From positions 171,831 to 235,830 of the forward strand of contig JAJEEM010000059.1 of NCBI GenBank assembly GCA_022820995.1: a stretch of 64,000 bases of DNA, read 5' to 3'. The position numbers and the translations under genes are program-made. Below, in pieces: positions 2,730-56,893 of this stretch (position 1 is its first letter; every line of letters begins with the position of its first letter). The notes below the pieces were generated by a model that was given only the letters and a program-made list of their open reading frames with translations, was not told the DNA's origin and searched no databases. This DNA comes from Gemmatimonadota bacterium (GTDB lineage Bacteria; Gemmatimonadota; Gemmatimonadetes; Palauibacterales; Palauibacteraceae).

Positions 2730-3983
2730 TCAGGACTTCAGAAGGCCCGAAGGGTCGTAGCCCGTGCCCCGCAGGATGCGCTCCACGGCCTCCCCGAGCT
2801 TCGAGTTCGGCGTGGAGGCGCCCGCCGTGATGCCGATGCTGATGTTGCCGTCCGGCAGCCAGGCGGATTCCGTCACCGTCTCATCGGTTCCGATCCGCTT
2901 GTGGCTGATGCGTCCCCGCACGGTGTCGATGCAGGCGGCGTCCTCGATGTGATACGTCGTCGTGTACAGCCCGCAGAGGTACGCGAGCTGGTTCGTGTTC
3001 GAGGAGTTGTAGCCGCCGATCACGACCATGAGGTCCGGCGGATCCTCCATCATCTCCTTCACGGCGTCCTGCCGCTTCTGGGTGGCCGAGCAGATCGTGT
3101 CGAAGCTGCGGAAGCGGTCCGTCATCTCCTCCGGCCCCCAGCGATCCACGACCGCCTCGCCGAGTTCCGCCGCGATGGCCAGCGACTCGGAAGCCAGCAT
3201 CGTCGTCTGGTTGGCGACGCCGACCTTCCCGAGATGGAGGTCGGGATCGAACCCGTCGGACACCGATTCCGCGAACGCCTCCATGAAGGAAGCCCGTTCC
3301 CCTTCTCCGCGGATATACGCGCAGACGAGCCGGGCCTGCTCCATGTCGCGCACGATGAGGAACTTCCCGTTTTCGTGTTTCAGGACCTGGGAACTCGTCG
3401 CCCGCGTCTCCTCGTGCCAGTGCTTGCCGTGGATGATCGAGGTGAAACCATCGCGGGCGTAGCCGTCCACCCGCTTCCACACGTTGAGCACCGAGCCGCA
3501 CGTCGTGTCGACGAGAATGCAGTCGAGGGCCCGCAACGCCTCGAAATCGTGCAGCGTCACGCCGAAGGCCGGAATGATCACGACATCGTCCTCGGTGACG
3601 CCGCTGAAGTCGAACTCCCCGGCGTCGGAAGGATAGAGGAACTCGATCTCCATCTCCTGGAGCCGGCGGTTCACGTGCGGGTTGTGGATGATCTCGCCCA
3701 CGAGCAGGATCCGCCGATACGGGAACTTGCGGCGCGACTCGTACGCGTAGTCCACCGCGCGGTCCACGCCGTAGCAGAAGCCGGAACTCTTCGCGAGACG
3801 CAGGAGGATCCGCCCCGCCTGAAGCTCGAAGTCCCGCTCCCTGATAAGGGAGACGATGGCGCTCCCGTACTCGAAATCGATCACCGGCTGGATCTCCTTC
3901 TTCAGACCCAGCCCGCGCCGATAATATCGTTCCTCCGCGGTCGACGTCTTGCGACCGCCCGAACTCAGTACCTGTTTCGTCAT
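2730..3983 (-). CDS. ispH: 4-hydroxy-3-methylbut-2-enyl diphosphate reductase, long type
   Basis: IspH carries out the last step of the MEP isoprenoid pathway, reducing HMBPP to IPP and DMAPP with a [4Fe-4S] cluster. The three cluster cysteines are visible: C70 (SSGFCYGV), C162 (DTTCGSV) and C298 (DTICSATQKRQ). With 417 residues it belongs to the long plant/cyanobacterial-type branch, not the ~315-residue E. coli type; the N-terminal 60 residues and the VIPAFGVTLHDFE segment are typical of that branch. I chose the ATG at 3983 (MTKQV) because the 22 codons upstream look like frame read-through. The gene is alone, convergent with the TPP pair and divergent from lon. Confidence 0.95.
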   Translation of the reverse strand: MTKQVLSSGGRKTSTAEERYYRRGLGLKKEIQPVIDFEYGSAIVSLIRERDFELQAGRILLRLAKSSGFCYGVDRAVDYAYESRRKFPYRRILLVGEIIHNPHVNRRLQEMEIEFLYPSDAGEFDFSGVTEDDVVIIPAFGVTLHDFEALRALDCILVDTTCGSVLNVWKRVDGYARDGFTSIIHGKHWHEETRATSSQVLKHENGKFLIVRDMEQARLVCAYIRGEGERASFMEAFAESVSDGFDPDLHLGKVGVANQTTMLASESLAIAAELGEAVVDRWGPEEMTDRFRSFDTICSATQKRQDAVKEMMEDPPDLMVVIGGYNSSNTNQLAYLCGLYTTTYHIEDAACIDTVRGRISHKRIGTDETVTESAWLPDGNISIGITAGASTPNSKLGEAVERILRGTGYDPSGLLKS

Positions 3984-48120: not shown

Positions 48121-48588
48121 TCACCGCCGTCGGGTTCTGAGGGACCCGCCGATGAGGACGCCGACGGGGCCGATGACGAGCATCGCGATGGGGTACCGTG
48201 CAGGTCCGTACGGCTCGCCGGAGGCGGAGAGGCCGGCGAGCGAGGCGAGGCTGAAGAAGACGAGAATCGCCGCCAGGACGCCGGCGTGGAGCCGTGGCGC
48301 GCGCGGAGCCGCGAGGGCCGCGAGGAAGCCCGCCAGGATGGTGACGGCGAGTCGCACGCCCAGACTCGTGAAGATGAACGCGGCGCCCGGAGCCATCTCC
48401 GGTTCCACGCCGAAGAGCGACAGCATCAGCCGTCCGGTAAGGACCGAGCCCAGCGTCAGCGCGACGAACCCCAGGATGACGGCCGCGACGCCACGTAAAA
48501 TCGAGGCGTCGCCCATGCGGGACCACGTCTCGACCGCCTCGTCGAGGTCGGGACGGTAGCCCGGGGGCGGCGACTCGGATTGCGTCAT
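48121..48588 (-). CDS. Small membrane protein of unknown function
   Basis: A 155-residue protein with a polar N-terminus (MTQSESPPPGYRPDLDEAVETW) and four predicted membrane helices: ILRGVAAVILGFVALTLGSVL, GAAFIFTSLGVRLAVTILAGFLAAL, HAGVLAAILVFFSLASLAGL and IAMLVIGPVGVLIGGSL. It ends in a basic tail. No motif or family is recognised. Its ATG overlaps the upstream CocE-type stop (ATGA), which makes it the coupled second gene of that operon, followed by the PLP enzyme. Confidence 0.7.
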   Translation of the reverse strand: MTQSESPPPGYRPDLDEAVETWSRMGDASILRGVAAVILGFVALTLGSVLTGRLMLSLFGVEPEMAPGAAFIFTSLGVRLAVTILAGFLAALAAPRAPRLHAGVLAAILVFFSLASLAGLSASGEPYGPARYPIAMLVIGPVGVLIGGSLRTRRR

Positions 48589-50516
48589 CCGCCTCTCTCC
48601 ATGACGGGCAGCACGATGTGCGATGCCCGGTCTCCGGCGTGGTGAATCATGTTCTCCGCGACCTCCCACTCTGTCTCATCGTAGTTGTTGCCGCCCGTGT
48701 TCAGGTTGCGGTCGAAGCGGGGGAAGTTGGAACTCGAGACCTCGATCCGCACGCGGTGGCCGGGTGCGAACCAGTGCGCCACCGAATGGAGGTCGACCCG
48801 GACCGGATAGACCTGTCCCGCTTCCATCATCACGGGTTCCTCGTATCCGTCCCGGTAGCGCGCCCGCATGATGCCCTCGACGATGTTGATGGCCCGGCCG
48901 TCGGGGTGGACGTCGAGGAGCTTCACGGTGAAGTCGGTGTCCGGGGCGCTCGAACTCACGTAGAGCCGGGCTTCGAGCGGGCCCGCGATCTCGAGGCCGC
49001 CGTCGCCCACCGGATCGCCGGTGTACACGAGAACATCCTCGCGTTCCTCGATATCCGACTGGTCGAACGCGCCCGGCTGGTCTTCGGGGTTCCCGGTGCA
49101 GCAGACGGAGCCTCCGCGGGAGGGGACGGGGTCCGCCGGATCGTAGACGAACCGGTCGGGGGGTTCCTCGCCGGGGGCCTCGGCGGAGAGGGCGCCGTCG
49201 CCGAGCCTCGTGTTCGCGTTTCCTCCGCTGCGGAGATAGAGGCGGGTCGCCGCGGCCCCGGGGGGCGGCCAGGTGTCGGCGGACGCCCATTCGTTCCGGC
49301 CCATCACGTAGTAGTGGACCCGGGGGATGTCGGTGATCCCGTTGTCCGCGCCCTTCAACCAGTAGTCGAACCAGGCGAGATAGAGCGAGCGGTAGGGCAG
49401 GCGGGCGTCTCCGAAGTCGACGTCCCCGACCACCGTGTGTTCCGTGGCGCGCTCGGACATGCAGTGGCTGGTCGGAGAGAGGATGACGTACTGGTGCGCG
49501 CCGCCCCGGTCGCTCACCGCGTTGTCCCGCATCATCCGCCACTGCTGGAGCGTCTCGTTCGCGCCGAGGTCGTACCACGAGTTCACGTGGAGCGCCGGCG
49601 TGTCGAATCGGTCGACGTCGCTCAGGTAGCCGAGTCCGTCCCACCATTCGTCGGCGAGCGGCGTGCTCATGACCTCTTCCCAGTCCGTGTCGCGGTCGGG
49701 CGGACCGTACTTCCGCATGAGGTCGATGGTGGGAAGCTCGCGGAGCGCGGCGAACATCTCGACCGGGGGCGGCGGCTCCCCTCCCGGCCGCTTCCGGCCG
49801 TTGCCGCGGAACCAGCCGAAGCTCGCCGAGAGCCCGAAGGCGCCTCCCTCGAAGATGCCGAAGTAGCCGTACCGCCCGCCGGCCGACCCGACCGACCCGC
49901 CGGCGGCCAGGGGGATGGCGGCGGCGTGCGCCGGGTGCCGCTGCGTCATGAGTTGCGTCTGGTTTTCCCCCAGGTAGGAGCAGCCGAAGGTCCCGACCTT
50001 CCCGTTCGACCAGGGCCGGGTCGAGGCCCACGCGAGCGCGTCGTAGCCGTCCTCCCGGTCCGCCGCGGACAGGAGGTAAGATCCCTCCGATGCATACTTT
50101 CCACGCACGTCCTGGACGACGACGGCGTATCCCTGTCCCGCGAAGAACCGCGCCGGCGAGATCGCGCCGGCCCCGTAGGACGATTTGTCGTACGGCAGCC
50201 GGATCATGACGACGGGAAGGCGGTCGCCCCGGTCGGCGGGCTCGACCGGCAGGTAGAGGTCCGTCGCGAGGCGAACCCCGTCCCGCATCGGGACCATGAG
50301 ATCCGTCTCGACCCGCACCTCGAACTCCGCTTCCGGCGTCGCGTAGGGATCGTTCGGATCCGGGGCGAAGCGGTCGAGGGCGGCAGCTGCGTCGGGCTCG
50401 ACCCCGCCGCCGGAGACCCGGGTCTGAGGCGCGCCCCCATCTCCCGAACAGGCGGCCAGCGCAACCGCCAGCGCGATCGCCGGTGCAAGACCGAGTCCCG
50501 GCCGTGATTTGTCCAT
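48585..50516 (-). CDS. CocE/NonD family hydrolase, lipoprotein (X-Pro dipeptidyl-peptidase-like)
   Basis: A 643-residue serine hydrolase. The signal ends LAACSGD (Cys23). The S15-type alpha/beta core starts VPMRDGVRLATDLYLPV (75-91); the nucleophile is S180 in GTFGCSYLGE; LHVNSWYDLG carries the catalytic Asp region and LSPTSHC the His. The C-terminal jelly-roll domain (about 420-643) has FTVKLLDVHPDGRAINIVEGIMRARYR and RIEVSSSNFPRFDRNLNTGG. It probably cleaves esters or prolyl peptides outside the cell membrane. A GGGGAG ribosome site precedes the ATG. A cytosolic-looking paralogue lies at 53583-55307. Confidence 0.9.
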   Translation of the reverse strand: MDKSRPGLGLAPAIALAVALAACSGDGGAPQTRVSGGGVEPDAAAALDRFAPDPNDPYATPEAEFEVRVETDLMVPMRDGVRLATDLYLPVEPADRGDRLPVVMIRLPYDKSSYGAGAISPARFFAGQGYAVVVQDVRGKYASEGSYLLSAADREDGYDALAWASTRPWSNGKVGTFGCSYLGENQTQLMTQRHPAHAAAIPLAAGGSVGSAGGRYGYFGIFEGGAFGLSASFGWFRGNGRKRPGGEPPPPVEMFAALRELPTIDLMRKYGPPDRDTDWEEVMSTPLADEWWDGLGYLSDVDRFDTPALHVNSWYDLGANETLQQWRMMRDNAVSDRGGAHQYVILSPTSHCMSERATEHTVVGDVDFGDARLPYRSLYLAWFDYWLKGADNGITDIPRVHYYVMGRNEWASADTWPPPGAAATRLYLRSGGNANTRLGDGALSAEAPGEEPPDRFVYDPADPVPSRGGSVCCTGNPEDQPGAFDQSDIEEREDVLVYTGDPVGDGGLEIAGPLEARLYVSSSAPDTDFTVKLLDVHPDGRAINIVEGIMRARYRDGYEEPVMMEAGQVYPVRVDLHSVAHWFAPGHRVRIEVSSSNFPRFDRNLNTGGNNYDETEWEVAENMIHHAGDRASHIVLPVMERGG

Positions 50517-50595
50517 CGGTTCCCACTCCCCAAGATTCACGCGTTCGAGAATGTTCTCGAAGATGACACCACGCCCGGCCACCGAGCGAGTGACG

Positions 50596-50934
50596 ATGAC
50601 TTCCGCCGCGATCGAGACGCTGGACCTGCAGACCATTCCCGGCGTCGGCCCCAGCATAGCGGGCGACCTCACGGAACTCGGCATCCGCCGGGTCCGGGAT
50701 CTCGAAGGCCGCGATCCCAACGAACTCTATGAGCGACTTTCCGAGCGGCGCGGCGTGCGCATGGATCCGTGTGTGCTGTACGTCTTCCGCTGCGCCGTCC
50801 ATTACGCGGAAACCCGTGCCGCGGAGACCGGAAGGACCGACGGCGAACCGGCGAGCACGGACGGCGAACTGCTCAAGTGGTGGAACTGGAAGGGCCGCGT
50901 CCACGCCAACGAGCGCCCGGGCGCGGCGGCCTGA
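50596..50934 (+). CDS. Helix-hairpin-helix protein, Cdd1 (pathogenicity locus) family
   Basis: A 112-residue protein. The helix-hairpin-helix is visible as LQTIPGVGPSIAGDLTELGIRRVRDLEGRDPNELYERL (about 10-47), followed by MDPCVLYVFRCAVHYAE, the Cdd1 signature. HhH units bind DNA non-specifically; the family's function is unknown. ATG 50596 is the sensible start, 79 bp from the divergent CocE gene. The alkyltransferase-like gene begins 15 nt later, so the pair may act together on DNA damage (inference). Confidence 0.85.
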   Translation: MTSAAIETLDLQTIPGVGPSIAGDLTELGIRRVRDLEGRDPNELYERLSERRGVRMDPCVLYVFRCAVHYAETRAAETGRTDGEPASTDGELLKWWNWKGRVHANERPGAAA

Positions 50935-51305: not shown

Positions 51306-52919
51306 ATGTGTCGTGATCCCCGCATTCGTCCGGTTCGTACGCTCGCTGGCGTGCTCCGCGCCGCTCTCCTTCTCGTCGCCCTGGCCGCCGGCAGCTTCGG
51401 GGCGCCGCTGCACGCGCAGGACACCCGCGTCGAGACCGCCTCGGGGAACGTCGACGGCATGCTGGCAGACGGCATCCGCTCCTACAAGGGGATTCCGTTC
51501 GCGGCGCCGCCGGTCGGGGACAGGCGCTGGAAGCCGCCCCAGCCGGTCGAGGCGTGGGGGCAGCGGACGCTGCGCGCGCACAGCTTCGGCCCGGAGTGCA
51601 TGCAGACCCCCTACGGCGCGGGGTCGTTCTTCGGAGGTCCGCCCGCCCCGACCGCCGAGGACTGCCTGTACCTGAACGTCTGGACCGGGGCTGCCGATGC
51701 CTCGGAACGGCGGCCGGTCATGGTCTGGATCCACGGCGGCGCGCTCACGCGGGGGTCCGGCTCCACCGGCATCTACGACGGCACGGCGCTGGCGGCGAAG
51801 GGCGCCGTCGTCGTCACGATCAACTACCGGCTCGGACCGTTCGGCTACCTCGCGCATCCGCTCCTCTCGGCCGAGTCCGAACACGGATCGTCCGGCAACT
51901 ACGGCGTCCTCGACCAGGTCGCCGCGCTCGAGTGGGTGCGCGACAACATCGCGGCGTTCGGCGGGGACCCGGACCGCGTGACGATCTTCGGCGAGTCGGC
52001 CGGCTCGTGGAGCGTGAACACGCTGATGGCGACACCGCTGGCGGCGGGACTCTTCCACCGCGCCATCGGACAGAGCGGAGGGCGGTTCGGCCCCATGATG
52101 CGTCTCTCGGACGCGCCGGAGGGCGGACGCTCCGCCGAGGAGATCGGAGCGGCGTTTCTCGCGGCGCTCGGGGCGGAGACGCTGGAGGACATGCGGAGGC
52201 TCTCCGCCGCCAGCGTGCTCGCCGGCCTCGCGACGCCCGCCGGACGCGGCTTCAGGACGGCCGAGAACGTGGACGGCTGGGTGCTGCCGACGGACGTGAC
52301 GACGGCCTTCGCCGGGGGAACGCACAACAACGTCCCGGTGCTCGTCGGATTCAACGCGGATGAGATGACCTCTCTCTCTTCCCCGAGATCCGTGCCGGAG
52401 ACGATCGACGCGTGGCGCGAGTGGGTAGCCGGCCGCGTCGGCGACGATGCGAAGAGCTTCGACGCCGCCTACCCGGTGGAGGAGGAAGGCGAAATCTTCG
52501 ACGCCTTCATGCGAAGCCGCGGCGACGCCCTGTTCGGCATCCAGATGCGGACGTGGGCGCGGGCGTCGGAGGCCGCCGGCGCGGGCGCCTGGCTCTACTA
52601 CTTCACGCATGAGCCGCCGGGACCCGCCAAGGACTATCTCAAGTCGTACCACGCGGCCGAGATCGTCTATGCGTTCGGCAATGTCGGTCCCGGCGAACGG
52701 GAGGCCGCGGACCGTCAACTGGCGGACACGATGTCCTCCTACTGGGTCAACTTCGCCGCGAACGGCGACCCGAACGGCCCCGGACTGCCGCCGTGGCCGG
52801 CGTACACGCGCGACGCCGAGGCCCATCTCGTGCTCGGGCCGACGGTCGAGGCGGGAAGCGAACTCCGCACGGCCCAGCTCGATTTCTGGGACCGGCGCCT
52901 CCGCGCCGGCACGCCGTGA
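51306..52919 (+). CDS. Type-B carboxylesterase, exported
   Basis: A 537-residue alpha/beta-hydrolase with a signal peptide ending PLHAQ (about 1-38). The oxyanion segment MVWIHGGAL (139-147), nucleophile S231 in IFGESAGSWS, acid in VGFNADEM, and His in KSYHAAEIVYAFGN form a complete catalytic set. EDCLYLNVWTG (119-128) is the type-B signature. It hydrolyses carboxylic esters in the periplasm or outside the cell. The stop shares one base with the ATG of the peroxiredoxin-like selenoprotein gene (TGATG). Confidence 0.93.
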   Translation: MCRDPRIRPVRTLAGVLRAALLLVALAAGSFGAPLHAQDTRVETASGNVDGMLADGIRSYKGIPFAAPPVGDRRWKPPQPVEAWGQRTLRAHSFGPECMQTPYGAGSFFGGPPAPTAEDCLYLNVWTGAADASERRPVMVWIHGGALTRGSGSTGIYDGTALAAKGAVVVTINYRLGPFGYLAHPLLSAESEHGSSGNYGVLDQVAALEWVRDNIAAFGGDPDRVTIFGESAGSWSVNTLMATPLAAGLFHRAIGQSGGRFGPMMRLSDAPEGGRSAEEIGAAFLAALGAETLEDMRRLSAASVLAGLATPAGRGFRTAENVDGWVLPTDVTTAFAGGTHNNVPVLVGFNADEMTSLSSPRSVPETIDAWREWVAGRVGDDAKSFDAAYPVEEEGEIFDAFMRSRGDALFGIQMRTWARASEAAGAGAWLYYFTHEPPGPAKDYLKSYHAAEIVYAFGNVGPGEREAADRQLADTMSSYWVNFAANGDPNGPGLPPWPAYTRDAEAHLVLGPTVEAGSELRTAQLDFWDRRLRAGTP

Positions 52920-53575
52920 TGGCGACCGGGCCGCTCTGCCGGCGACTCGCCGAGATCCGCGCGGAGAAGGAGGCCGCGCGCCCTGCCGCCGCCACGGCAG
53001 TCATGGCCGCGGGAACGGAGGCTTTGCGGGCTTCCGGGATCCTCGATCGTCTTCCCCGCGTGGGCGACCGCGCACCCCTGTTCGCGCGCCCGAGCGTGGC
53101 CGGCCCCACGGTCCGGCTGAAGACGCTCCTGAAGCGCGGCCCCGTGGTGCTCAGCTTCTTCCGCGGCCGCTGGTGACCGTACTGCCGCGAGGAGCAGGTT
53201 GCTCTTCAGTCGGTTCTTCCGGAGATCGAAGCGAAGGGCGCGCGCCTCGTCACGCTCTCCCCGCAGCTCGCCGAGTTCGCCCGGGGCTGGATCGAGGAGG
53301 ACGGCATCGAGTTCGACGTCCTGCTGGACCTCGGGCTGGGGGTGGCTCGTGACTACGGCCTGACGTTCCGGATCGAGGGCGAACTGCGCACGCTCTACCG
53401 CGACGGCCTCGGCATCGATCTCGCGCGCTTCAACGGCGACGAATCCTGGGAACTCCCGCTCACGTCCACCTTCGTCATCGATCGCGACGGAACCATCGTC
53501 TACGCCTCCGCCGATCCGGACTACACGGTCCGCGCCGAGCCCCACGAAATCGTCGCCGCCATCCCGGAGATCTGA
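52919..53575 (+). CDS. Peroxiredoxin-like (AhpC/TSA) protein, predicted selenoprotein with UxxC
   Basis: A predicted 218-residue thioredoxin-fold redoxin in which codon 86 is an in-frame TGA (53174-53176). Upstream, RVGDRAPLFARP and GPVVLSFFRGRW are the normal lead-in to the peroxiredoxin-like CPYC site. Downstream the same frame continues PYCREEQVALQ, then LVTLSPQLAEFARGW, DYGLTFRIEGELR, LPLTSTFVIDRDGTIVYASADPDY, without any damage. The TGA therefore replaces only the catalytic Cys, giving U86-P-Y-C89. A SECIS-like hairpin follows directly. The protein would reduce peroxides with thiol partners. It is coupled to the esterase gene by TGATG. A plain nonsense mutation (TGC to TGA) is the alternative; SelA/B/C/D genes are not in the window. 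Confidence 0.82.
53174..53215 (+). promoter_or_regulatory. Bacterial SECIS-like stem-loop directly after UGA
   Basis: RNA 53175-53215 folds with GACCG/CGGTT (starting inside the UGA; one G-U), ACTG/CAGT, and upper stem AGGAGC/GCTCTT around the loop AGGTT; U53180 and CCGCG (53185-53189) bulge on the 5' side. The loop starts 19 nt after the UGA and has GG at positions 2-3, within the known bacterial SECIS range (fdhF loop AGGUCU). Confidence 0.75.
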
Positions 53576-53582
53576 GGGCCTT

Positions 53583-55307
53583 TTGCCCGGCACTCCGCGG
53601 GAGGTGCGGCTGCTTCATGGGCTTCGGGGCCGGATGCGCGATGGGGTGCGGCTGTCGGCGGACGTTTATCTGCCCGCTTCCGGGGGCCCCTTTCCCACGA
53701 TCCTGACGCGGACGCCGTACGAGAGCGGTAGGGATGTGTTCATCGAGAACGGCATCTGGTGGGCGGAGCGCGGGTACGCGTTCGTCGTTCAGGACTGTCG
53801 CGGCCGTTTCAACTCGGAGGGTGTATTCCACGCGTACGTCCCCGAGATCGAGGACGGCTGCGACACGCTCGAATGGGTGGCGGGGCAGGCGTGGTGCGAC
53901 GGGAAGCTCGGGATGTGGGGGCGCAGCTACGGGGGCCTCACGCAGTGGCTGAGCGCGCCGCTCGGAAGCCCCCACCTCACCTGCATGGCGCCGCACGTGA
54001 TCTGCGACGACCACTTCGGGGACTGTCACTACCTGGGCGGGGCCTTCCAGTTGCTCCTCTCGCTCGGCGCGGCCGTGATCTGGGAGACGAACCTCGCGAT
54101 CGTGACCGGCAGGCAGGCCGCGCGTCTGTTCCAGAACCCGAAGTTCTGGGCCCACCTGCCGATCATCGAGATGGACGAGCGCGCGATCGGGCGGAAGATC
54201 CCGTATTGGCGGGAGTGGCTGGAGCACCCGACGCGCGACGAGTACTGGCGGCGCCTCAGGGTCACGGACCAATACGGCGGTGTCACGGCACCGGCGTTTC
54301 AGCAGGGCGGGTGGTACGACGCGTATCCGGGGTCGGCGCTCCGCATCCACGAGGGGATGACGGCGGGAGCCGCGACTCCCCGGGCCCGCGCGCAGAACCG
54401 GACGCTCATCGGCCCCTGGTCGCACGAAGTCCCGGAGACGAGGACGGTCGGGGACCTCGACTTCGGACCCGACTCCTGGGTGGATGTGCGGGAGGAGGAG
54501 CGGCGCTGGTTCGACTGGCAGCTTCGCGGCGTGGACGACGGGATCGGCGAGGAACCGCCGCTGCGCTGGTTCACGACGGGCGCCAACCGGTGGCGGGACG
54601 GCGCGGAGTGGCCGCCGCCGGGGACGGAGGAAGTGCCCTGGTATCTGCACAGCCACGGGCGCGCGAACCGGGACGACGAGGCCTGGCTCGATCCGGAGCC
54701 GCCGGGGGACGAGCCCCCCGACCGCTTCGAGTACGATCCGCGGGACCCGGCGCCCTCGCTGGGCGGCAATCTCTCGTCCCGGCTGATCACGACCCACGCC
54801 GAGACGCCGATGCGGGGCGGACCCGTCGAGCAGGCGCCGCTCGAGCGGCGTCCGGACGTGCTCGTGTATACGTCGCGGGTCCTGGAGGACGATCTCGAGG
54901 TCACGGGGCCGGTCGAGGTCGTGCTTTACGCCGAATCGTCGACGCGGGACACGGACTTCGTGGCGCGGGTGACGGATGTCGATCCGGCGGGAGGATCGTT
55001 CGTCCTCACCGAGGGGATCCTGCGCGCGCGGTATCGCGGCGGGCTGAGCCGAACCGAACTGCTCGAACCCGGCGAGGCGGCGGAGTTCCGGATCCGGCTC
55101 TACCCGATGAGCCACGTGTTCCGGGCCGGCCACCGGATCCGGCTTCAGATCACGAGCAGTTGCTTCCCCCGCTTCAGCCGCAACCTCAACACCGGCGAGG
55201 ACGTGGGGACCGGGACCCGCATGCGGACGGCGCGGAACACGGTTCTGCACTCGGCGACCTTTCCCTCGCACCTTCGGCTGCCGATCCGCGCTTGCTCATC
55301 CGGCTGA
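53583..55307 (+). CDS. CocE/NonD family hydrolase, no signal peptide
   Basis: A 574-residue S15-type serine hydrolase. It starts GRMRDGVRLSADVYLP (15-30); the nucleophile is S115 in MWGRSYGGLTQW; GGWYDAYPGS carries the acid region and IGPWSHE the His. The C-terminal jelly-roll (about 400-565) includes DFVARVTDVDPAGGSFVLTEGILRARYRG and RIRLQITSSCFPRFSRNLNTGED. TTG 53583 is the longest start; ATG 53634 would still keep the core. It lacks a signal, unlike its paralogue at 48585-50516, so it is likely cytoplasmic. Its 3' end overlaps the convergent metX gene by 12 bp. Confidence 0.9.
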   Translation: MPGTPREVRLLHGLRGRMRDGVRLSADVYLPASGGPFPTILTRTPYESGRDVFIENGIWWAERGYAFVVQDCRGRFNSEGVFHAYVPEIEDGCDTLEWVAGQAWCDGKLGMWGRSYGGLTQWLSAPLGSPHLTCMAPHVICDDHFGDCHYLGGAFQLLLSLGAAVIWETNLAIVTGRQAARLFQNPKFWAHLPIIEMDERAIGRKIPYWREWLEHPTRDEYWRRLRVTDQYGGVTAPAFQQGGWYDAYPGSALRIHEGMTAGAATPRARAQNRTLIGPWSHEVPETRTVGDLDFGPDSWVDVREEERRWFDWQLRGVDDGIGEEPPLRWFTTGANRWRDGAEWPPPGTEEVPWYLHSHGRANRDDEAWLDPEPPGDEPPDRFEYDPRDPAPSLGGNLSSRLITTHAETPMRGGPVEQAPLERRPDVLVYTSRVLEDDLEVTGPVEVVLYAESSTRDTDFVARVTDVDPAGGSFVLTEGILRARYRGGLSRTELLEPGEAAEFRIRLYPMSHVFRAGHRIRLQITSSCFPRFSRNLNTGEDVGTGTRMRTARNTVLHSATFPSHLRLPIRACSSG

Positions 55308-56360: not shown

Positions 56361-56426
56361 TCGGCTTCTCCATGTTGTTCGCGACGCCAACTCCGGAGCA
56401 GCCGACCGACCCGTGCGGGTGCGACG

Positions 56427-56547
56427 CTCATCTCTCGGATCCCTGTTCGAGGGTCCGCAGGAGTTGGCACCGCTGGGCTGCGCGCGAGCGCGCGTGCCCC
56501 GGTTGCCCCGGCTTCAAAGGGCCCGTCCCTCAGCCGGTCTCGATGAG
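56427..56547 (-). ncRNA. SAM-I riboswitch controlling metX
   Basis: On the minus strand the leader shows the full SAM-I order: P1 5' strand CTCATC (56547-56542), GAGACCGGCTGAGGGACGGGCCC, GAAGCCGGGGCAACC, a GC-rich P3 (CGCGCGCTCGCGCG region), GGTGCCAACTCCTGC, a P4 hairpin and P1 3' strand GATGAG (56432-56427). No T-run terminator is seen before the start, so control is likely at translation initiation. SAM binding should shut off metX. Confidence 0.93.
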
Positions 56548-56556
56548 TAGCGGCCG

Positions 56557-56668: not shown

Positions 56669-56682
56669 CCGCGCCCTCAACG

Positions 56683-56795
56683 CTCATCGAGACCGGTCGA
56701 GGGACAGGCCCGAAGACACCGGGGCAACCTGTGGAAGGTGGCTCTTCCACTGATGTGCCAACTCCTGCGACGGATGTGATCCGTTGGTAGATGAG
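56683..56795 (+). ncRNA. SAM-I riboswitch controlling aspartokinase-asd
   Basis: SAM-I elements appear in order: P1 CTCATC (56683-56688), GAGACCGGTCGAGGGACAGGCCC, ACCGGGGCAACC, P3 hairpin GTGGAAG/CTTCCAC, GTGCCAACTCCTGC, P4 CGGAT-GTG-ATCCG and P1 closing GATGAG (56790-56795). About 98 nt follow before the aspartokinase start. CTTCTCC (56846-56852) could pair with the GGGAGG ribosome site, so translational control is likely; no terminator T-run is seen. Confidence 0.94.
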
Positions 56796-56893
56796 TCGCC
56801 CGCCGCGCTTCGTCAGCACGGCAGCTGTCGTTCCCAGGGCGTCGCTTCTCCGGAGTCCGCTGAGTGTGGATCGAGACTCGGGGAGGCGTTTCA

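Follow-up and report, generated by a model that had tools for sequence, protein, structure and literature searches.

The stretch of DNA analysed here, called the window, comprises 64,000 nucleotides of contig JAJEEM010000059.1 from a Gemmatimonadota bacterium. On its forward strand, at 52919..53575, lies a gene for a peroxiredoxin-like protein that is almost certainly a selenoprotein. Its reading frame is interrupted only once, by a TGA at 53174..53176 (+), which occupies the first cysteine of the CPYC active site of the family. A first-pass annotation of the same DNA had described a single in-frame TGA at this site with intact coding on either side, and the frame reads in just this way. When the TGA is translated as selenocysteine (Sec, U), the product has 218 residues with a single internal U at position 86, in the context RGRWUPYC. 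(The query protein P0001 used in the searches carries one extra C-terminal residue from its translated stop codon.) The TGC at 53183..53185 (+) encodes Cys89, the presumed resolving residue, and this column holds C in all 99 database proteins that span both active-site positions. The protein has a PF00578 domain (86 bits, cut-off 26), and its structure model reaches a predicted local distance difference test score (pLDDT) of 97.3. Just downstream of the TGA, at 53189..53207 (+), the transcript is predicted to form a selenocysteine insertion sequence (SECIS) hairpin.

The selenoprotein reading rests on the codon itself, the Sec machinery encoded in the genome, UGA in close Gemmatimonadota relatives against cysteine at that column in other phyla, and a hairpin of the bacterial SECIS (bSECIS) form. 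A six-frame scan of the 64 kb, with author-set thresholds that required coding-like codon usage across 50 codons on each side, found two TGAs, at 53174-53176 and at 50932. Since the latter marks the junction between two adjacent genes, the former is the only intragenic case found in the window.

The codon is conserved among close relatives. Within the genus, 15 of 17 genomes (this one included) have the gene with TGA; in the other two the stretch is absent, because the match in G004 stops at residue 83 at a contig end and G012 has no match. None of these genus genomes shows the sense codon that the first-pass annotation had named as part of its counter-evidence. Across the phylum, 395 genomes drawn by the search tool gave 41 matches (expectation value E<=1e-30) in 40 genomes, with TGA in all 41. 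The 32 of these that were mapped (nine were not) all have TGA at the Sec column, down to about 43% identity. In other phyla the column is occupied by TGC or TGT in 15 of 15 loci at E<1e-25 (L070-L084); one of these, L084, has an additional stop slightly ahead of the active site. The Cys/Sec exchange that had been proposed as a check is therefore present at this column. Cys also occurs within Gemmatimonadota, in distant representatives of the wider family (L045, L046, L051).

At the protein level, 120 of 373 database matches (E<=1e-20) were listed, and column 86 holds C in 87, D in 10 and W in two; the other 21 begin past the column. These 21 are precisely the listed entries with more than 60% identity. 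Among named relatives, Gemmatimonadota records come closest, three of them Candidatus Palauibacter at 89-90% protein identity, which makes a relationship of this bacterium to Palauibacter likely. The fragments suggest an explanation in which UGA is a genuine stop and the locus encodes two shorter proteins, the second from an internal start, as database entries of 120-134 residues starting past the codon would have it. Such a break, however, would separate the two active-site residues; the 87 full-length Cys relatives are continuous; and the starts of the fragments vary, as guesses by gene callers would. We consider two separate proteins very unlikely.

Asp replaces the catalytic Cys (RGRW-D-PFCC) in ten of the listed proteins: P0046, P0060, P0074, P0076, P0086, P0092, P0096, P0098, P0110 and P0121. 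One branch of the family has thus lost the catalytic residue; three of the ten are placed in the tree described below. A TGA at the Sec column also occurs, at lower similarity, in an acidobacterial locus (L086, JAPKZP010000050.1, base 2440), in the context FHRGTW-U-PNC. It is followed by a 7-bp hairpin whose register differs from that of the Gemmatimonadota rows, and L086 stands outside the helix test of UGA rows given below.

A tree was built with the Sec column masked from 60 rows (25 loci of the first set, seven of the 16 of the second set, and 28 of the 120 listed proteins, including both W proteins and three of the ten D proteins), using the 'quick' method without bootstrap. In it, 18 UGA rows including the main gene form a clade among Cys rows, with a Shimodaira-Hasegawa-like approximate likelihood ratio test (SH-aLRT) value of 100. 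An adjoining mixed group contains three further UGA rows and the two W rows. The UGA label requires two changes on this tree, only one of which is forced by well-supported branches, and L082 and L083 form long branches.

Selection has continued beyond the TGA. The ratio of nonsynonymous to synonymous substitution rates (dN/dS) is 0.066-0.261 after the codon and 0.065-0.322 before it, in the six of seven pairwise comparisons with unsaturated dS; the seventh, with L038, is saturated. Sequence comparison thus indicates purifying selection about as strong past the TGA as ahead of it. All 15 genus rows have 131-134 codons of open frame past the TGA. In the main gene 132 codons precede the stop, so the earlier statement that the codons after the TGA show no decay stands, and its count of 129 does not. 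An in-frame TGA ordinarily ends a protein, and gene callers treat this one so, since 21 of the 120 listed proteins begin past it. A nonsense mutation in a dying gene, with the remainder decaying, would fit that view, but it is hard to square with the low dN/dS, the open frames, and the identical codon at the identical column in every mapped match of the phylum. It is extremely improbable.

The genome encodes the machinery for Sec, and all four components named as a check by the first-pass annotation are above their cut-offs. Profile searches found selA on contig C34 (492 bits, cut-off 267.9), selB at C74:9924-11786 (367.7 bits, cut-off 242.25) and selD on C78 (371.6 bits, cut-off 125). About 5 kb from selB lies the single tRNA-Sec match above the family cut-off (79.7 bits, cut-off 47), with the anticodon tca according to ARAGORN. 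The other 13 listed matches to the model are below the cut-off, and those of them submitted to ARAGORN proved to be tRNAs for Ser, Leu and Tyr. Among relatives, tRNA-Sec is above the cut-off in 53 of 60 genomes, in 16 of 17 in the genus, and in 27 of 28 gene-bearing genomes that were checked for it.

Alternately, UGA could be reassigned in this genome to another amino acid, for instance Trp or Cys, without selenium. Two proteins of the Joint Genome Institute (JGI) have W at the column, although these are protein records alone and may reflect a gene caller that reads UGA as Trp. Against this idea stand the presence of tRNA-Sec(UCA), SelA, SelB and SelD, and the finding of only one intragenic TGA of such a kind in 64 kb. 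In addition, 10 of 15 genus orthologues terminate with TAG near where the main gene has its terminal TGA, so TGA still acts as a stop in this genome. Reassignment can be given almost no weight. An assembly error or strain mixture that put TGA in place of a true TGC might be suspected in a genome of 3.72 Mb in 78 contigs (94.7% complete, 3.1% contamination), but is already refuted by the independent assemblies of the genus.

The hairpin after the UGA has the sequence GAGGAGCA-GGU-UGCUCUUC, with an 8-bp stem (53189-53196 with 53200-53207) and a GGU loop (53197-53199) 20 nt past the UGA. A possible lower stem pairs GCCG at 53184-53187 with CGGT at 53211-53214 (53184..53214, +) in the minimum-energy fold of this sequence only. 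In the published model (PubMed Central, PMC, number PMC13188914), bacterial SECIS elements have an upper stem of 4-16 bp and a loop of 3-9 nt with G within the first two positions, the loop lying 16-37 nt after the UGA. By its sequence the predicted hairpin fits this model, which bears out the expectation of a SECIS-like hairpin downstream of the UGA.

Comparison between species supports the helix. In 32 distinct UGA rows (22 from the first set and 10 of 16 from the second, with L135, L136 and L143-L146 omitted as copies or near-copies), 82.8% of the cells of the eight-pair helix are paired, and the four core pairs GAGC/GCUC are intact in all 32. None of 500 shuffles reached this percentage, the nine double-change cells or the covariation score. 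The 12 distinct Cys rows are only 47.9% paired, no better than shuffles (194/500).

Codon usage points to the same region. The rarest-codon columns among 179 in the genus alignment are +9, +13 and +10 relative to the UGA: +9 is GCT in 15 of 15 genomes at a usage of 2.4%, +10 is CTT in 13 of 15, and +13 is GTT in 10 of 15. In +9 and +10 the third base is paired within the stem, in the 3' arm of the hairpin. The proposal that all three columns lie in paired arms was rejected on a recount, which puts the third base of +13 outside the helix. At a fixed register, 0 of 5000 synonymous recodings equalled the observed helix in each of seven genus rows, and nine of 13 distant UGA rows gave p<=0.05; 14 of the 15 Cys rows were run in the same way, with L084 omitted for its early stop. 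When the best hairpin was allowed at any position, p was 0.008 for the main gene and up to 0.76 among 14 UGA orthologue rows.

Several of these results weigh against the selenoprotein reading, mostly through the hairpin. The three outer pairs of the stem are intact in only 17-20 of the 32 UGA rows and fail in 12-15, and for two of five covariation measures 49 and 33 shuffles out of 500 did as well. The third base of +13 is unpaired in the helix, its first two bases being able to enter the lower stem. At the fixed register only nine of the 13 distant rows reach p<=0.05, as do two of the 14 Cys rows, and the register itself was picked from UGA rows, a bias in their favour. With position left free, four of the 14 orthologue rows (L064-L067) give p of 0.07-0.76. 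The folding energy of the whole region is ordinary (z -1.3). Finally, G016 has the UGA gene and SelB but no tRNA-Sec above the cut-off, and since tRNA-Sec is so widespread in the phylum, its link with the gene is weak evidence.

Among Cys homologues, two near-identical Pseudovibrio rows (L075 and L078, bases 3253-3303) have TGC and, after it in the SECIS register, AGAGCU-UGA-AGCUCU, a 6-bp stem closed by a UGA loop, with p of 0.015 and 0.009 on synonymous recoding. This is perhaps a remnant SECIS left after a Sec-to-Cys change, or merely the codons of the peptide ELEAL. A general occurrence of remnant SECIS elements in Cys homologues was discarded, as only these two of 14 rows show one; they are a lead only.

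Other genes in the genome are selenoprotein candidates as well. SelD (L023, G000:C78:177779-178705) is likely a selenoprotein itself, with an in-frame TGA at locus base 1531 in the context GAG-U-ACKLG. A PF00578 search gave 12 matches, three with an internal TGA: the main gene; a UPYC paralogue on the same contig (FYRGHW-U-PYC; L002:1294-1998, G000:C35:74741-75445, elsewhere given as 74741-75442); and a peroxiredoxin with RTRG-U-TVQM on the reverse strand (L156, G000:C2:49008-49403), which fits the classical TxxU Sec peroxiredoxin. Together with SelD, these make at least four candidates. The SelD hairpin has a 9-bp stem with its GGA loop 20 nt downstream of the UGA, and the paralogue hairpin a 7-bp stem with a GGA loop at 21 nt; both likewise have sequences that match the bSECIS model. 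The free-position test gave p of 0.001-0.23 in seven paralogue rows. The paralogue is carried by 18 of 60 relatives, with TGA in all 18.

If the main gene is read as a selenoprotein gene, SelB and Sec-tRNA(Sec) would bind the hairpin and insert Sec86. This residue sits directly ahead of a helix in the structure model. It would be the one to attack the substrate, a peroxide or disulfide, after which Cys89 would form a selenenylsulfide with it to resolve the intermediate; the enzyme would be recycled by thioredoxin or a similar reductant. The main protein, in which no signal peptide is evident, is probably cytosolic. The N-terminus of the paralogue, which we take to be a lipoprotein-like signal, suggests that this second enzyme is probably exported, and the same chemistry is therefore likely on both sides of the membrane.

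The gene lies between two hydrolase genes. Upstream is a carboxylesterase-family gene (51306..52919, +; PF00135, 360.9 bits) whose stop at 52917-52919 overlaps the selenoprotein start codon at 52919-52921; downstream is an S15/CocE-type hydrolase gene (53583..55307, +; PF02129, 199.4 bits; PF08530, 151.3 bits). Both are neighbours in the closest species only. The order alkyltransferase-like gene, esterase, selenoprotein, S15-type hydrolase is seen in every one of the eight named loci L055-L062 (89-97% identity); two of them have about 830 bases ahead of the hydrolase. No esterase match was found in the 21 named loci L063-L083, where upstream sequence is missing for L064 and limited to 1.2 kb for L069. 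In L039 and L043 an alkyltransferase-like gene is immediately upstream of the selenoprotein gene. The coupling to an esterase gene, offered earlier as the new point, thus holds here and in the closest loci and fails as a general feature; synteny rejects a conserved esterase-selenoprotein-hydrolase unit outside the closest species.

Elsewhere in the window, two S15/CocE-type hydrolase genes (48585-50720, -; 53583-55307, +) and the carboxylesterase gene fall inside 7 kb. Divergent S-adenosylmethionine (SAM) riboswitches of family RF00162, at 56425-56549 (-) and 56681-56797 (+) with 77.6 and 73.2 bits, are flanked by an alpha/beta-hydrolase-fold gene on one side and an amino-acid-kinase gene on the other.

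No selenoprotein report for Gemmatimonadota was found in the literature searched, with subscription papers mostly outside it. The string 'gemmatimon' has no match in the available text of PMC13188914, PMC5029168, PMC9312934 or PMC1794560, and 'seleno' none in that of the Palauibacterales paper (PMC10469786). SELO homologues are mentioned in Gemmatimonadetes (PMC3281104), as is a Gemmatimonadetes genome in PMC8318568. The sequences indicate a redox enzyme with Sec at its active site, spread over one branch of a phylum for which this search found no such report. Palauibacterales are predicted to be facultatively aerobic (PMC10469786). A 2026 review states that aerobic bacteria seldom retain selenoproteins (PMC13188914), and Sec users in a 2016 survey were about equally often aerobic and anaerobic (PMC5029168); a fixed Sec enzyme in this order bears on that question. 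There is also a practical annotation fault: what the databases offer as the nearest proteins are C-terminal pieces that lack the selenium-binding residue.

The evidence strongly supports the main gene as a real selenoprotein gene with an unusually clean all-Sec clade. What seems new is this Gemmatimonadota clade with its truncated database entries, and the second UPYC paralogue. A wider picture can be offered only tentatively, and we would not expect all of it to hold: a Sec-only UPYC subfamily, over no NCBIfam cut-off and truncated in databases, may be fixed across a Gemmatimonadota branch some of whose lineages are predicted facultative aerobes, with the lipoprotein-type paralogue completing a two-compartment selenol redox pair and the Pseudovibrio hairpin recording a Sec-to-Cys reversal.

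Several known families resemble the protein. Among solved structures, AhpE and Bcp peroxiredoxins match it at 19-24% identity, and by family motif lack the UxxC site; the listed solved-structure match spans residues 41-218 and scarcely covers the N-terminal helices (5-38). SelL-related NF040769 shows weak profile similarity (33.6 bits, far below the cut-off of 120); the SelL motif is UxxU, and the main gene has one U. The full-length relative P0006 bears the NCBI name 'peroxiredoxin-like family protein', which presumably corresponds to cd02970. That family is likely the same in a broad sense, but is described with UxxS (PMC13188914), whereas the main gene has UPYC. Sec peroxiredoxin shares the fold and has the motif PxxxTxxU (PMC13188914), which is absent here: residues 79-86 are SFFRGRWU, with Gly83 at the Thr position, and Cys89 follows the U.

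The nearest known system is the Prx-like thiol:disulfide oxidoreductases (PF00578, UxxC/UxxU; PMC1088965, PMC2398784, PMC13188914), whose defining UxxC motif and PF00578 domain are both present. Selenoproteins of this type have been in print since 2005, in agreement with the earlier remark that they are established from marine sources: 22 UXXC sequences came from the Sargasso Sea (PMC1088965) and 225 'Prx-like 1' selenoproteins from the Global Ocean Sampling (GOS) set (PMC2398784), and the 2026 review counts them as predicted with high confidence (PMC13188914). The main gene, likened to them by description only, shares PF00578, UxxC and Cys homologues, along with marine sources. It adds a member to this group, and differs in having UPYC as a fixed motif of a Gemmatimonadota clade.
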